Shown one piece after another: positions 6,891-36,758 of a stretch of 64,000 nt of DNA (position 1 is its first letter; each line of letters begins with the position of its first letter). The notes beneath the pieces were generated by a model. The model saw only the letters and a program-made list of their open reading frames with translations. It had not been told where the DNA came from and made no database searches. A program made the position numbers and the translations under genes. Source of the stretch: Aliarcobacter sp. Its GTDB lineage: Bacteria; Campylobacterota; Campylobacteria; Campylobacterales; Arcobacteraceae. The stretch covers positions 124,001-188,000 of the forward strand of contig JAQVBE010000001.1 of NCBI GenBank assembly GCA_028690445.1, written 5' to 3'.

Positions 6891-6932
6891 AAAAACTATT
6901 TCATCATATTTATGATGAAGTAGTTTTTCCCC
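6891..6932 (+). terminator. Strong intrinsic terminator overlapping the kinase 3' end
   Basis: A 17-bp stem (6891-6907 pairing with 6912-6928, one G-U pair) with loop ATTT, closed by an A-run and a T-run on its outer sides, so it can work in both directions. It ends the cbiB transcript. On the other strand the right arm codes for the last residues of the histidine kinase (stop at 6896), so the hairpin is partly coding. Confidence 0.8.
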
Positions 6933-8119
6933 TCTTCGTATTTATATTCTAGTTTATAACCATGTAAATTTACAATTGTTTTTACAATATAAAGTCCTAA
7001 CCCAAAACCATCACTTCTTTTTTCTTCTTGTGAAAATGCCTCTGTATAATATGAAAGTTCATGTTTTAGTTGTTCTCCCATAGAAATAATTTCTATTTTT
7101 TCTTTATTTGCTTTGATTATTGCTTTTTTATTTGGTGAAAATTTTATTGCATTATCAATTAAATTTTTTAGAGCAATTGGCATCATTGAGTTATCAACTT
7201 TGAAATCAAAATCTTCAATTTGCGTTGTTAAGTTAATAGGATTTATCATCATAATTTCTAGAGTTCTATTATAAATATTTAAAAAACTATTTTCTTCTTT
7301 GTAAATCATTGTATTTTTAGAAGTTAGTTTTTCAACTGTTGCCAACTCTTTTATAATATCATCCATTCTTTTGAAAGCTCTTTGAAGGTTTAATCTGGTC
7401 TTTTCATCTTCTAAAGTTTCAGCAATAAACATTGCTTTTGTGATTGGAGTTTTAAGTTCATGCATCATGTTTCTCATAAATAAATCTTTTGATTTTGATT
7501 GATTATTTATGATATTTATAGCTTCATTAAAACTTTTTGCTATTGTTCCTACTTCATCTTGACTTGTGTAGTTTAATTTTATATCTTTATTTCCATTTGA
7601 AAATTCAATTAGTTGTTTATTTAAAAGTTTAAGAGGTTTTAGTTTTCTTTTTAAAATCTCATATAAAATTAAAAAAGTCAAAATAGAAACAATGAACCCA
7701 GCAATTATAAAAGCAATACTATAATTGTGACCATCTGAATCTTTTAACATAATGTTATAGCCATATTGTTGCACATAAATATAATAATTGCCATCATATT
7801 TATAAACACGATATGTTCCTAAATAGTTTTGAGTTATTGTTAATTCTTGAGCATTTTTTATAATTTCTAATCTCTTTTCTCTTTCTTCAATAGGCTTAAC
7901 TTTAAATTTTTTAAAAATAGTTAATAATGATTCTGCCGTTGGTTGATTTTGAAAAGAGCTTAAAAAAATTTCTGCTATTAATTCATATCTATTTTGTAAA
8001 GATATTTCATGTTTTTGTTGGTCATAGTTTATAAACATGGCAAATGTTATAAAAATAGAGATAAAAGCTAATGAAAATATTATATTTACAAAAGTAGAAA
8101 TAGAAATATTTTTTATCAT
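6896..8119 (-). CDS. Sensor histidine kinase (CprS-like)
   Basis: 407 residues. There are two membrane segments (about 10-28 and 137-157) enclosing a periplasmic sensor of about 110 residues, then HAMP, a HisKA region with the phosphoacceptor in MMHELKTPITKA, an N-box (LIDNAIKFSPN) and a G-box (GFGLGLYIVKTI). The DxG box is degenerate (SMGEQ), which is worth checking. It overlaps the response regulator by 4 bases and follows htrA, the same order as C. jejuni htrA-cprR-cprS, so a role in sensing envelope state is likely. The CprS equivalence is inferred from gene order. Confidence 0.85.
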   Translation of the reverse strand: MIKNISISTFVNIIFSLAFISIFITFAMFINYDQQKHEISLQNRYELIAEIFLSSFQNQPTAESLLTIFKKFKVKPIEEREKRLEIIKNAQELTITQNYLGTYRVYKYDGNYYIYVQQYGYNIMLKDSDGHNYSIAFIIAGFIVSILTFLILYEILKRKLKPLKLLNKQLIEFSNGNKDIKLNYTSQDEVGTIAKSFNEAINIINNQSKSKDLFMRNMMHELKTPITKAMFIAETLEDEKTRLNLQRAFKRMDDIIKELATVEKLTSKNTMIYKEENSFLNIYNRTLEIMMINPINLTTQIEDFDFKVDNSMMPIALKNLIDNAIKFSPNKKAIIKANKEKIEIISMGEQLKHELSYYTEAFSQEEKRSDGFGLGLYIVKTIVNLHGYKLEYKYEEGKNYFIINMMK

Positions 8120-8793
8120 ATTAACTGATACCCAATACCTCTTACCGATTTTATAGGCATAGTAGTTTCATCTATTTTTGCTAATTTTGTTCTAATTCTT
8201 GAAATTATTACATCAATATTTTTTAAAGATGAATCATCTTCAATATTATCACTTGCATAAATAAAATCTTCCCTTGCTACAACTCCATGATTTCTTTGAA
8301 TTAAAAGTTTTAAAATATCATATTCAGCAAGTGTCAAAGTAAGTGCAGTTCCTTGAAATAGGATTTGCATATCATCTTCTCTTACCTCAAAAAGTGAGTT
8401 TTGTTCTGGTTTTTTATGTTCATTATTTGAATCAACTCTTTTTAAAATAGTTTTGATTCTAGCTTGAAGTTCTCTTGGATTGTAAGGTTTTGGAAGATAA
8501 TCATCAGCACCTCGTTCAAGTCCCATAACTTTGTCTAAAATATCATCTCTTGCTGAACTAATAATAATTGGAATATTAGATTTTTCTCTTATTTTTGGAA
8601 TCAATTCTAAACCATCTATTTCAGGAAGAGTTAAATCTAAAATAATAAGTTGATAATCTTTATGAACATCAAGCATTGATAATCCATTATATGGACTATC
8701 TGTGTTTACTACTTCTATGTCAAACGATTTTAAATAATCAGTGATGATTTGAGCTAATTCTAGATCATCTTCTATCATAAGTACTTTTATAAT
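8116..8793 (-). CDS. OmpR-family response regulator (CprR-like), apparent AUU start
   Basis: Receiver domain with the phosphoacceptor Asp in LIILDLTLPEIDGLEL and a Lys in DDYLPKPYNPREL, then an OmpR/PhoB winged helix (C-terminal VRGIGYQL). The first ATG (8778) gives 220 residues but begins at MIEDD and loses the first half of strand beta-1. Reading five codons upstream, ATT ATA AAA GTA CTT, gives IIKVLMIEDD, the normal family beginning. The ATT at 8793-8791 sits 6 bases after AAAGGA, an ideal ribosome site. I therefore extend the gene to an AUU start (225 residues). It lies 10 bases after the htrA stop and overlaps the kinase. Confidence 0.85.
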   Translation of the reverse strand: MIKVLMIEDDLELAQIITDYLKSFDIEVVNTDSPYNGLSMLDVHKDYQLIILDLTLPEIDGLELIPKIREKSNIPIIISSARDDILDKVMGLERGADDYLPKPYNPRELQARIKTILKRVDSNNEHKKPEQNSLFEVREDDMQILFQGTALTLTLAEYDILKLLIQRNHGVVAREDFIYASDNIEDDSSLKNIDVIISRIRTKLAKIDETTMPIKSVRGIGYQLI

Positions 8794-8803
8794 GGGTTAT
8801 CCT

Positions 8804-10240
8804 TTATTGAATGATAAATAAAATAGTTTGTCCGTATCTATTTACATACACTCTTTTATATTTATTAGCATATTTTTTTAATACTGTTTCAACATTTGCA
8901 AAATTCTTTACCTCTAAATCTTCAATTTGAACAATAATGTCCCCTGCTTGAAAACCAGCTTTTTCAGCTTTTGATTTTAGTTCAACATCTGAAATTAATA
9001 TTCCTATAACATCAGTTGGTAATCTAAATTGTTTTTGAGTTTCACCATCTATAACACTCAATTTTAATCCACCAAGAAAAATATTATTATTTACAGGAGA
9101 AGCCGTTGCAGGTGTTTCTAATACTGTAGTTCGGTCAGCTAAAATAATAGTTAATTCAATATCTTTTTCATCTCTTTCAACTTGAATTTTTACTTTTTCA
9201 TCAGGTTTAAAAGATGCAATTGTATTTTGTAAAGAAGATTTATCTTTAGCTAATTTACCATTTATTGCATAAATTAAGTCACCTCTTTTTAGACCACCTT
9301 TAGCAGCTGGTGTGTCAGCTGAAATATCTAAAACTAAAGAACCTTCTTTTCTTTTATAAACTTTTGAAGATTCATTGTCTAAATCAGCAATAGCAACGCC
9401 TAAATATCCTCTTGTTACTTTTCCATCGGCAACTAATTTCCCAACTACATCTTTAACCATTGCAACTGGGATTGCAAAACCAATTCCATTGTTTCCACCA
9501 CCTTTTGAAATAATTGCAGTATTTATTCCAATTAAAGCACCTCTTGAATCAACTAATGCACCACCTGAGTTTCCAGGATTTATAGAAGCATCTGTTTGAA
9601 TATAATTTTCATATCTATTTATTCCAACTTTATTTTTATTTAAAGCTGAAATAATTCCTTGAGTTACAGTACTTCCTATTCCAAAAGGATTTCCAATAGC
9701 AAATATAACATCTCCAACTAATAATGAGTTAGAATCAGCTAGTTTTATAGGTCTTAATGCAATATTTGCTTCAATTTTAATAACAGCAATATCACTATCA
9801 GCATCACGACCTACAAGTTTTGCATTATATTCTGTTGTTTCATCACCAATTGTAACAGTGATTTCTTCTGCATTCTCAATAACATGATTATTTGTAACTA
9901 TATAACCATCTTTTGAAATAATAACACCAGAACCAAGTGATCTTTGAATTCTATTTTGTTTGAATTGATTTCCAAATTGGTCTCCAAAAAATCTTTTGAA
10001 AAAGGGATCATTAAACATTTGTAAAGGAAGATTTTCTATTCCTTCATTTACATGTTTTTTTGCAGAAATATTTACAATAGATTGAACAGAATTTTTAACA
10101 CTATTGTTAAAAGATAAGATTTCATTTGCAGAGTTTGGAGAAACTCTAGTAGGATTTGAATCTACTACTTCAAAATCAATTGTTTTTGAAAACAGTTGAG
10201 TGGCTATTAATGTAGAAATTAGTAGAAGTTTTTTCTTCAC
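8804..10240 (-). CDS. htrA: Periplasmic serine protease/chaperone HtrA (Do/DegP family)
   Basis: 478 residues. There is a signal peptide (MKKKLLLISTLIATQLFSKT), a trypsin-like protease with H119 (TNNHVIE), D150 (DSDIAVI) and S225 (NPGNSGGA), and two PDZ domains (about 275-365 and 385-475). It degrades and refolds misfolded envelope proteins. It is first in a three-gene operon with the two-component regulator and kinase, which suggests the kinase controls its own stress protease. About 120 bases separate it from ilvD. Confidence 0.95.
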   Translation of the reverse strand: MKKKLLLISTLIATQLFSKTIDFEVVDSNPTRVSPNSANEILSFNNSVKNSVQSIVNISAKKHVNEGIENLPLQMFNDPFFKRFFGDQFGNQFKQNRIQRSLGSGVIISKDGYIVTNNHVIENAEEITVTIGDETTEYNAKLVGRDADSDIAVIKIEANIALRPIKLADSNSLLVGDVIFAIGNPFGIGSTVTQGIISALNKNKVGINRYENYIQTDASINPGNSGGALVDSRGALIGINTAIISKGGGNNGIGFAIPVAMVKDVVGKLVADGKVTRGYLGVAIADLDNESSKVYKRKEGSLVLDISADTPAAKGGLKRGDLIYAINGKLAKDKSSLQNTIASFKPDEKVKIQVERDEKDIELTIILADRTTVLETPATASPVNNNIFLGGLKLSVIDGETQKQFRLPTDVIGILISDVELKSKAEKAGFQAGDIIVQIEDLEVKNFANVETVLKKYANKYKRVYVNRYGQTILFIIQ

Positions 10241-33497: not shown

Positions 33498-33533
33498 TTC
33501 CGTGTTAATCTATAAAATTGACACGGAACTTTT
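33498..33533 (+). terminator. Intrinsic terminator of the lipoprotein gene
   Basis: A 12-bp stem (TTCCGTGTTAAT with ATTGACACGGAA, one wobble) with a CTATAAA loop, then CTTTTAT. It sits 9 bases after the stop and may also serve the convergent operon. Confidence 0.75.
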
Positions 33534-34500
33534 ATAAAAAAACTCCATTTATAAAATAATATCTAAGTAAATAAAAAGAACACAAAAATATAAAAATCGA
33601 ATTAAATAAAATTGAGTATTTAAAGCTGTAATTTAAATCTTTATTTGTAAATTTAGGTACAACAAAACTTGCAATCGCAAAAAAAGTTCCTAAAAATAAT
33701 GTGAACCAAATAAAATATCCTACAAAATAATACTCTTTTTGAAGCATACAAAACGGACATTGATGAGTGGGAAGTTGATAAATATATGTTGAAAAGAAAT
33801 AAGTAATTGCATAATATGCAATATATAAGAAAAATAGATTAATTATAAAATTTAGCATTTTTTGCTTTTGAATATTTGTAAAAATAGTTAAAATATAAAT
33901 TAAATAGAACAGACCCACAAGCATAGAAGTTGATAGATTAAAAGGAATGTTATTTCCTGTTGAATTAGCTCCAAAAATTACAGAACAACACATTACAGGC
34001 TCTTTTGTTGAAATACTTGAAAGATACAATATATCAAGGGTTGTTTCAATTAAAATTAATATAAAAATAGAAATAAAAAAAGCAAATTTTCTTTTTGTAT
34101 ATGGATAGATTTTTTCTTTTAAATCCAAACTATTAATTATTAACCAAACACCAATACAAAATAAAATGATCAGCTTTAAAGCTAATAATATTTCACCATA
34201 ATTATTCGCTTTTATAACTCCAGCTGCACACATGGCTCCTGGAATTATATGTGATAAATTATCTAAACTATAAGCAAAATATGGAAATAAAAATATTTTT
34301 ACAATAAGAGTAAAAAATATAATAAGTATTACTAAATATGAGGTTTTTTCAAGCTTGTATTGTTTAGATGTTGTTTTTTCATAATCCCAATTTTTAATTA
34401 TAAAAGTAGAAAAATAAAAAGCTATAAAAAGAAGAATAAATAAAATAATTTGAGTAAATAAATATATAATAATCTCATTAGATAAAAGTATTTCACTCAC
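33532..34500 (-). CDS. Polytopic membrane protein with DsbB-like CPFC motif
   Basis: 322 residues, about eight membrane segments. Cys residues lie at likely membrane edges: GAMCAAG, VMCCSV and HQCPFCMLQ. The last strongly recalls the CxxC of DsbB (CPLCIYQ), so a disulfide or quinone exchange role is possible, or metal handling. The full family is not identified. It overlaps the ABC ATPase gene by 8 bases and forms one operon with it. Confidence 0.6.
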   Translation of the reverse strand: MSEILLSNEIIIYLFTQIILFILLFIAFYFSTFIIKNWDYEKTTSKQYKLEKTSYLVILIIFFTLIVKIFLFPYFAYSLDNLSHIIPGAMCAAGVIKANNYGEILLALKLIILFCIGVWLIINSLDLKEKIYPYTKRKFAFFISIFILILIETTLDILYLSSISTKEPVMCCSVIFGANSTGNNIPFNLSTSMLVGLFYLIYILTIFTNIQKQKMLNFIINLFFLYIAYYAITYFFSTYIYQLPTHQCPFCMLQKEYYFVGYFIWFTLFLGTFFAIASFVVPKFTNKDLNYSFKYSILFNSIFIFLCSFYLLRYYFINGVFL

Positions 34501-35164
34501 AAATTATTCCATTTTTGATATTTATTATATCGTCAACGAAATTAAGATTATCAAATATTGGGTCGTGAGTTGCCACAATTATTGTTTTATTTAAATCTTT
34601 TAATATTTTTAAAGTTTCGATAAAAATAATAGAGTTATCATAATCTAAATTTGCAGTAGGTTCATCACAAAGGATAATCTCTGGATTATTAACAATTGCT
34701 CTAGCAATGGCACATCTTTGTTTCTCTCCACCTGAAAGATTATAAACTAACTCATCTTTTTTATGATTTATATTTGCCAATTCCAAAGCTTTTGAAACCA
34801 TTTCATCTATTTGTTTTTGATTAAATCCAAGTGGGATTAAAGCGATAGAAACATTGTCTTTTACACTTAAAGTATCAAATAAATTGTATGATTGAAAAAT
34901 AAATCCAAGGCGTTTTGCTCTAAAATTTGAGGCGTGCAAATCAGGAAGTTTTGCGATATTTTCATTTTCTACAACTATACTTCCACTTGTTGGTTTTAAT
35001 AAAGTTCCAATAATCGATAAAAGTGTAGATTTTCCACTTCCGCTTATTCCTTTTAAAATAACACATGACGAATTTTTGATTTCTAAATTGATATTTTTTA
35101 AAGCTTGAAATTCTCTTTTTGTATTTTCATTAAATATTTTATTTAGGTTTGTGATTTTTATCAT
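34493..35164 (-). CDS. ABC transporter ATPase, LolD/MacB-type
   Basis: 223 residues. Walker A GISGSGKST (about 38-46), Q-loop FQSYNLF, signature LSGGEKQR, Walker B IILCDEPTANLD and a switch His in ATHD. The PTANLD and short length mark the group that works with FtsX-type permeases. It overlaps the permease by 4 bases. Confidence 0.93.
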   Translation of the reverse strand: MIKITNLNKIFNENTKREFQALKNINLEIKNSSCVILKGISGSGKSTLLSIIGTLLKPTSGSIVVENENIAKLPDLHASNFRAKRLGFIFQSYNLFDTLSVKDNVSIALIPLGFNQKQIDEMVSKALELANINHKKDELVYNLSGGEKQRCAIARAIVNNPEIILCDEPTANLDYDNSIIFIETLKILKDLNKTIIVATHDPIFDNLNFVDDIINIKNGIICE

Positions 35165-36339
35165 TTCATACTCTCATTTGCATCGATTACTGATATTTTC
35201 CAAACTGGAATTAAAATAGCACTCAAAAAGGGAATTATAAAAAATAAGAAAAGAGTCACAATTATTGTGAAATCAATATTTGGATTTAAAATAAAATCAT
35301 TTTGAACATTTGAAAAACCAATAAAAATATTTTTTAAAATAGGCGCATTTAATATAAATACAAAAATATATGAAATAATAATTCCAATAATAAAAGCCAT
35401 GAATCCAACTATAAAATTTTCAATAATTTTTAATTTAATAATATCTTTTATGCTCCAACCAACTGCTTTTAAAATACCAATCTCTTTTTTATCACTTGAA
35501 CTAATCATCGAATATCTTTGGTATAAAATTAAAATAAAAGTAAAGATTACAACTATAAATAAAACTAAGAAAATCCCGCCTTTATAGTTGAACATATTTT
35601 CGTACTCTTTTTTTAGGCTTTCTTTTTGTAAAATTCTAATATTTGAGTGTTTTAAAATCAGTTGTTCTTTTATATTTTGTCTTTCTAAATTATTTGGGAC
35701 ATTTAAAACAATATCAGTTGAATTTTCTTCATTAATATTTAAAATCCTTTTTGCAAGATTTATATCCATAATTATTAAATCATTTGCAACTAAATTTGCT
35801 TCTTGTGGTAAGTCTTTGAATATTTTTACGGTTGTTAATTCATTATTAGAAAGTTTAAAATCATAAGAATCAAAATAGTGATATTTATTAAATATTTTTT
35901 TTATTCCATTTCCAATAATCATTGAGTCATTTTGTAGAAAATCAGAGATATTTAAGATTTTTAAAAGTTCTTTTAGATTTTTATTGGTATTTTCTTCAAA
36001 TAAATCAAGCCCAACAATTGTAAAATAAACATTTTCAGGCATAAAATAATATTGTCCATAAACTCTTTGTTGTGTATTCTTTATTCCATTTATAGAAGAA
36101 AAATCTTCAATCCATGAGATTGGTGTATCCAAAATTTTCCCACTATTTATTTTTTGAATTACAAAATCATTTTGGTTCTCTAAAGTAGAAAAAGCTTCTT
36201 TTTTTAAACTATTAGAAATAAATAAAACACTAGAAATCAAAAAAACAATTAAAATTGAGATAATAAAAATGGCAATATGTTTTGATTTATGTTTGAGTAG
36301 TAAAAGAAATAAGAAATTAAAAAAAACACTATTTTTCAT
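35161..36339 (-). CDS. FtsX-like ABC transporter permease
   Basis: 392 residues. A first membrane helix (about 22-45), a long periplasmic domain (about 50-255), then three helices; the KKEIGILKAVGWS segment between the second and third is the FtsX/MacB coupling motif. These transporters move substrates out of the membrane or transmit force rather than pump through a pore. The substrate is unknown. The ATG overlaps the upstream small ORF's last codons. Confidence 0.9.
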   Translation of the reverse strand: MKNSVFFNFLFLLLLKHKSKHIAIFIISILIVFLISSVLFISNSLKKEAFSTLENQNDFVIQKINSGKILDTPISWIEDFSSINGIKNTQQRVYGQYYFMPENVYFTIVGLDLFEENTNKNLKELLKILNISDFLQNDSMIIGNGIKKIFNKYHYFDSYDFKLSNNELTTVKIFKDLPQEANLVANDLIIMDINLAKRILNINEENSTDIVLNVPNNLERQNIKEQLILKHSNIRILQKESLKKEYENMFNYKGGIFLVLFIVVIFTFILILYQRYSMISSSDKKEIGILKAVGWSIKDIIKLKIIENFIVGFMAFIIGIIISYIFVFILNAPILKNIFIGFSNVQNDFILNPNIDFTIIVTLFLFFIIPFLSAILIPVWKISVIDANESMK

Positions 36340-36586
36340 AGATAAAATCCAAGTAGTTTATTTGTAAGTTTATAAAATGAATCGTATTAGAAAAATCATC
36401 TTGTTCTTTTATTCTTGATTCGTAGATATTATTTGAATAACTGAAATTTGAAAGTTTTGAAATCGTACTTATTTTTGTAGTGTAGTCAATTTTATTATTT
36501 AATTTAGAGTGAAAAAAAATAAAAAAAACAAAAGATAAAATAAAAAAAGTTATAAAAAAGGTAAATCTTTTTGTTAATGTTGTGAT
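36329..36586 (-). CDS. Small single-helix membrane protein, apparent AUC start
   Basis: The frame is open for about 85 residues, with a strong membrane helix (FFITFFILSFVFFIFF, about 11-26) and a hydrophilic outer part rich in Asn, Ser and Ile. There is no ATG, GTG or TTG upstream of the helix. ATC at 36586-36584 lies 6 bases after GAGGAG, a perfect ribosome site, and the frame is closed by a TAG just above. The stop overlaps the permease start, like other operon joints here. Either AUC starts it or the gene was inactivated by a G-to-C change. No family recognised. Confidence 0.5.
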   Translation of the reverse strand: MTTLTKRFTFFITFFILSFVFFIFFHSKLNNKIDYTTKISTISKLSNFSYSNNIYESRIKEQDDFSNTIHFINLQINYLDFIYEK

Positions 36587-36758
36587 TGAAAACTCCTCTT
36601 CGAACTAAGGTATTTTATCTTTATTTAGTTAATTTATAGTTAAACAAATTATATAAAAAAGTAATTTAATGATATTATTAATAATAATTTCTATTGCCAG
36701 AAAGCCCGTAAAATAGCTGTTTAAGTCTTATCTAAGTAATAATATATATAAAAAAGTA

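Follow-up and report, generated by a model that had tools for sequence, protein, structure and literature searches.

The question raised by this locus is how a short gene might be read when its frame holds no usable start codon. The window, the whole 64,000-nucleotide stretch of Aliarcobacter DNA analysed here, contains such a frame just ahead of a gene for an FtsX-like permease. Few bacterial genes that start with AUH (AUU, AUC or AUA) have been well studied, infC foremost among them. A preliminary description of the window had pointed to a hidden ORF of 85 codons with an AUC start, GAGGAG six bases ahead of it and an overlap with the permease, and all of these were seen again, on the minus strand. 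It had also left two explanations side by side: that AUH starts are used more than once in this genome, the other instance being a response regulator, or that an ATG had recently been lost from one of these genes.

From stop to stop the frame comprises 91 codons (36604..36329, minus), with the ATC as its codon 7 (36584..36586) and a TAG at 36331-36329, giving an ORF of 85 codons from AUC to TAG (36329..36586, minus). The predicted Shine-Dalgarno (SD) sequence, GAGGAG, is located at 36593..36598 on the same strand, and its GGA(G) is kept in relatives. The ATC is followed by a hydrophobic stretch, roughly RFTFFITFFILSFVFFIFFHSK. In the window, the frame offers no ATG, GTG or TTG until codon index 84, and up to 30 bases away from the ATC none occurs in the other frames either. 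In some relatives a TTG or ATG is found a few codons inside the ORF.

Comparison with relatives had been proposed as a check, with stop codons or frameshifts across the frame as the outcome that would tell against a gene. With the permease as query, 34 of 41 genomes were matched, many of them through distant paralogues; the search in the Arcobacteraceae matched 73 of 104 genomes at E up to 1e-20. The 35 small-ORF loci read come from four genera of this family (25 from the window's genus, eight from g35, and one each from g32 and g29). In none of the 35 is the frame interrupted by a stop or a frameshift. The start column is ATT in 21, ATC in 13, ATA in one and ATG in none, and a GGA(G) core is found at a fixed distance from it in every locus. 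The AUC is therefore part of a conserved AUH start, not the result of a recent AUG loss, and the persistence of both frame and start column in every orthologue puts the ORF beyond chance. An upstream in-frame start is impossible in the three g35 loci where a TAA stands in frame immediately 5′ of the ATC (L036, L039, L041), and likewise in three loci of the window's genus where the frame opens TAG-GGC-ATT (L016, L050, L051).

Substitutions in the small ORF, compared with the copy in the window, gave dN/dS values of 0.11–0.80, all below 1, for 31 of 34 comparisons (the other three were saturated); mean pN/pS over all pairs, uncorrected for saturation, was 0.63. Conservation of the protein is seen in the hydrophobic N-terminal half, in the membrane helix, and in the C-terminal motif Y-x-x-F-x-Y-E. 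No usable family match was obtained for it in Pfam, NCBIfam or PDB. Matches to the 8xMP and YneA profiles were below the curated cut-offs (14.8 bits vs. 30 and 10.9 bits vs. 60, respectively), and no family was common to the 20 members scanned. To judge from this conservation, the small ORF is genuine and forms the first gene of an ABC-transporter operon, and a protein product is presumably made from it.

Elsewhere in the family the position is occupied in several ways. Of the four loci read in genus g36, three have ATA in the equivalent position (L049, L052, L053), and the fourth, L077, has a different layout there. The five g31 loci (L044-L048) have an ATG but lack a GGA core at the normal distance; start codon and SD strength thus seem to trade off, and AUH is not essential throughout the family. 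The remaining family loci are laid out differently and encode ATG-started small proteins, many of them following a gene called NosL-like on the basis of a sequence motif. A profile comparison of the AUH- and ATG-started small proteins was weak (probability 28, E 6e-4), and homology between them, for which the argument would be mainly position and a short motif, was not adopted.

The first 11 bases of the permease gene (35161..36339, minus; PF02687, E 9.4e-13) overlap the small ORF, whose TAG sits 11 bases into the permease start (ATGAAAAATAG); translational coupling is a likely consequence of this arrangement. Next come an ABC ATPase of LolD/MacB type, by profile matches (34493..35164, minus), and downstream of it in the same operon the gene for a polytopic membrane protein of 322 aa (33532..34500, minus); this gene starts with GTG, its product contains a CPFCM motif, and no Pfam match to it exceeded the cut-off. 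Upstream of the small ORF, the sequence TTAAC-N6-TTAAC-N10-TAAAAT (36612..36643, minus) is a probable activated promoter. The repeat and the −10 motif are present at 23 of the 35 loci, and the leader would be only ~20 bases if TAAAAT is the −10 element. The geometry of the TTAAC direct repeat presumably resembles that of an OmpR/PhoB-type activator site. A sigma-70 promoter scan did not list this site, and its output was no better than that from shuffled sequences. Genome-wide, the repeat was found at eight sites with up to one mismatch, two of them exact (the second at C8:107176-107207), vs. two in a reversed control; a wider TTAAC regulon was not accepted. The LolCDE/MacB-type FtsX operons near nosL in Campylobacterota are alike in their FtsX-like permease and LolD-like ATPase, and in related loci outside the genus this place is taken by a NosL-like gene together with a small membrane protein that starts with ATG. 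In Aliarcobacter, unlike the nosL-type operons, the small ORF comes first, with an AUH start, a promoter-like motif of its own and a divergent dksA-like neighbor.

The response regulator named in the preliminary description as a second AUH case is of the OmpR family and, extended to its AUU start, has 225 aa (8116..8793, minus). From 8805 downward on the minus strand its start region reads AAAGGA-taaccc-ATT-ATA-AAA-GTA-CTT-ATG, the part from AAAGGA to the first ATT being 8805..8791, and this gene too proved real. The AUU is at 8791..8793, and the SD sequence AAAGGA, six bases before it (8800..8805), overlaps the stop codon of the upstream gene for an htrA/degP-type periplasmic protease (8804..10240, minus; TIGR02037 above cut-off). 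The regulator's partner is an ArsS-family sensor kinase (6896..8119, minus; NF038389, 399 bits, cut-off 250), which adjoins it as in an ArsS/ArsR two-component system. The stretch between regulator and permease, from ~12.2 to 31.7 kb, is a probable mobile element, with genes named by eye as integrase-like, helicase/mobilization-like, restriction-modification-like and HigBA-like. The two genes are ~27 kb apart in the window vs. ~8 kb in genome G022.

Seventy regulator loci were drawn from the 80 genomes with a match. All have ATH at the start column (ATT 32, ATA 29, ATC 9, ATG 0), with six bases between GGA and this codon in every case, and in 69 of them an in-frame stop is met upstream before any canonical start; the exception, L128, has a distant TTG. 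Homologues from other families of the order, a set of 23 loci that may mix in paralogues, were read by eye: 13 have ATG as the aligned codon, one has GTG, six have ATH with no other visible start (L287, L291, L292, L294, L295, L296), and L298, L300 and L301 have ATH with an ATG further upstream. The ATG at the aligned column in these sister families identifies it as the true start codon.

A survey for further cases covered 275.55 kb (contig C18) and 109.1 kb (contig C20), ~16% of one genome, against the syntenic parts of genomes G022 and G018; 290 genes had orthologues in both (209 on C18, 81 on C20). A gene was retained if a conserved site with its own SD sequence lay four codons or more ahead of every canonical start, a limit applied by eye, and if the gene had no conserved canonical SD start. 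The SD rule was strict, recognizing conserved canonical SD starts in only 64 of the 209 and 27 of the 81 genes, and weaker cases are missed by it. Just three of the 290 genes passed, all with ATH: the small ORF, the response regulator and a lipoprotein, with no qualifying gene among the 81 on C20. The first two had been flagged before the survey, so the lipoprotein is the only independent case, and scaling these numbers up to the whole genome is uncertain.

The lipoprotein gene is outside the window (G000:C18:42184-42588, locus L238; placed at C18:42199 in the survey) and begins AAAGGATTAGCC-ATA-AAA; its match to the HP0838 family was weak and below cut-off. Among 30 loci in the family, AAAGGA-N6-ATH is found in 25 and AAAGGA-N6-ATG in two (L257, L258), with the motif absent in three. 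Since the two ATG codons stand at the same place after AAAGGA-N6, this column too is a start codon. A canonical codon is thus found at the same column in relatives for the lipoprotein and the regulator, and for the small ORF only in g31, in a different upstream context. As far as conservation of sequence can tell, an AUH start is kept in the Aliarcobacter group in at least three genes (the small ORF, the ArsR/CprR-like regulator and the lipoprotein), and the suggestion that such starts are used repeatedly in this genome has held up.

That AUH is the genuine start codon of these genes is very probable from these alignments, and the other accounts of the same sequences fare poorly. Were the small ORF a decaying remnant, its ATG recently lost and the frame now untranslated, the lack of a canonical start for it in the window would follow naturally; but ATH and an open frame in all 35 orthologues from four genera, dN/dS below 1, and the same ATH in a fully intact response regulator make this scarcely credible. 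The recent ATG loss entertained in the preliminary description finds no trace in the relatives of either gene, with no ATG at the start column in any of the 35 small-ORF loci or the 70 regulator loci. The conserved stretch is also extremely unlikely to function in the permease leader as an RNA element that is not translated. Its situation between a promoter-like motif and the permease would suit one, but its substitutions follow codons, as the dN/dS values indicate, the membrane helix and Y-x-x-F-x-Y-E are kept, and there is no Rfam match over it at E up to 1. Translation could also begin elsewhere, at an upstream start in another frame followed by a programmed frameshift or at an internal canonical start. 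In some relatives (e.g., L015-L017) a TTG does occur close by, either out of frame or slightly inside the ORF, and in the regulator an ATG lies five codons past the AUU. However, no canonical start codon is close to the small-ORF AUC in any frame in the window, the first one in frame being near the C-terminus. For the regulator, an internal start would drop the conserved first strand (I-I-K-V-L) and would lie 21 bases from the SD sequence, whereas family profiles match the AUU-started protein from residues 2–3. A start elsewhere is therefore considered very unlikely.

If AUH is where translation begins, the next point is what reads it. A search of the Aliarcobacter genome for initiator-type anticodon arms with any anticodon yielded one site accepted by ARAGORN, with anticodon CAU, and a second in which ARAGORN found no tRNA. 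A special initiator tRNA for AUH was rejected, as the only recognizable initiator in the genome is the ordinary CAU one, and AUH must then be read by the normal initiator with a third-base mismatch. Ribosomes would start the small ORF at AUC by means of its strong GAGGAG site, the ordinary initiator tRNA pairing with AUH at the first two bases, and the strong SD site would offset part of the resulting loss. Start-codon discrimination of the IF3 type would keep the output of AUH starts low and dependent on initiation fidelity, and the low rate of the small ORF would probably be handed to the overlapping permease by translational coupling. In published work, IF3 excludes weak third-base pairs in vitro (PMC10158994) and represses the AUU of infC and the GTC of Streptomyces sigR, and changing the sigR GTC to a canonical start upsets the ratio of regulator to antisigma factor (PMC5472188). 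Low expression restrained by IF3 is, by analogy with these cases, somewhat favored as the reason for the AUH starts, the link to IF3 being extrapolated from E. coli and Streptomyces. The infC gene itself has an in-frame TTG (UUG) after GGGAG/GGAAG/GGATG-like cores in the 37 family loci read (L150-L179, L180-L186), with a nearby ATG as well in L172. An autoregulatory loop through an AUU or AUC start of infC was thus discarded; because infC has UUG, the classic IF3 feedback loop is not present here in its usual form, and IF3 control may act through the UUG of infC instead.

The choice of AUH might instead reflect history alone, an inefficient start being sufficient for genes of low need, with the SD site merely compensating and no regulatory role. 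A low dose is plausible for all three genes, each of which has a strong SD site, and SD compensation of weak start codons is on record (PMC5622118). ATG is also tolerated, at two lipoprotein loci and in the small ORF of g31, which leaves a regulatory role unproved. On the other side, ATG is a single substitution from ATT, ATC or ATA and yet is found in none of the 70 regulator loci, although T, A and C replace one another at the third base; this looks like avoidance of AUG, not neglect. History alone is judged the less likely account, and the weak start was probably selected for dose or regulation. The preferred reading as a whole, weak conserved AUH starts with strong SD sites, restrained by IF3, is given a probability of roughly 0.75. 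A broader version is put forward only tentatively, at less than an even chance: a family-wide translational regulon of envelope-related genes in which initiation fidelity, through the level or state of IF3 or the pool of free 30S subunits, would jointly set the dose of the envelope-stress regulator, the transporter operon and the lipoprotein, with AUG selected against.

If this reading is true, AUH starts are something that an entire bacterial family uses routinely and under selection (three of 290 genes, with the regulator in every member read), and annotation limited to ATG, GTG and TTG loses or truncates the genes that use them. The conserved AUH points to a start signal kept weak on purpose, one that gene-finding programs pass over. 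It also provides a natural substitution series, with T, C or A and occasionally G as third base at fixed SD spacing, for studying initiation fidelity as regulation. No AUH starts in Arcobacter or Campylobacter came up in searches of open-licence papers, and a term search of the main text of a C. jejuni translatome paper (PMC11955535) did not find ATT, AUU or ATA as words.

Non-canonical starts are known in principle from infC and sigR. The infC gene (AUU in E. coli, ATC in Streptomyces, with autorepression by IF3; PMC5472188) shares with the genes described here a conserved AUH after a strong SD site. It differs in that they encode a regulator, a small membrane protein and a lipoprotein, for which no autoregulatory loop is implied. 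Streptomyces sigR is alike in that it encodes a regulator and combines a conserved non-canonical start with a strong ribosome binding site, repressed there by IF3; according to the same paper, its GTC is kept in 32 of 34 species, with GTT in two (PMC5472188). Its third base thus drifts without a return to G, as in the AUH genes. As in infC and sigR, a start other than ATG, GTG or TTG is found at a fixed distance from the SD sequence, in 35 of 35 loci for the small ORF, 70 of 70 for the regulator and 25 of the 27 with the motif for the lipoprotein, and in the window no canonical in-frame start is available to serve instead. IF3 dependence has been measured for sigR. The sigR case is GTY in one gene of one genus, in contrast to AUH in three genes, one of them in 70 of 70 family loci; what appears to be new here is this family-wide extent, with AUG absent at two of the three sites in the loci compared.
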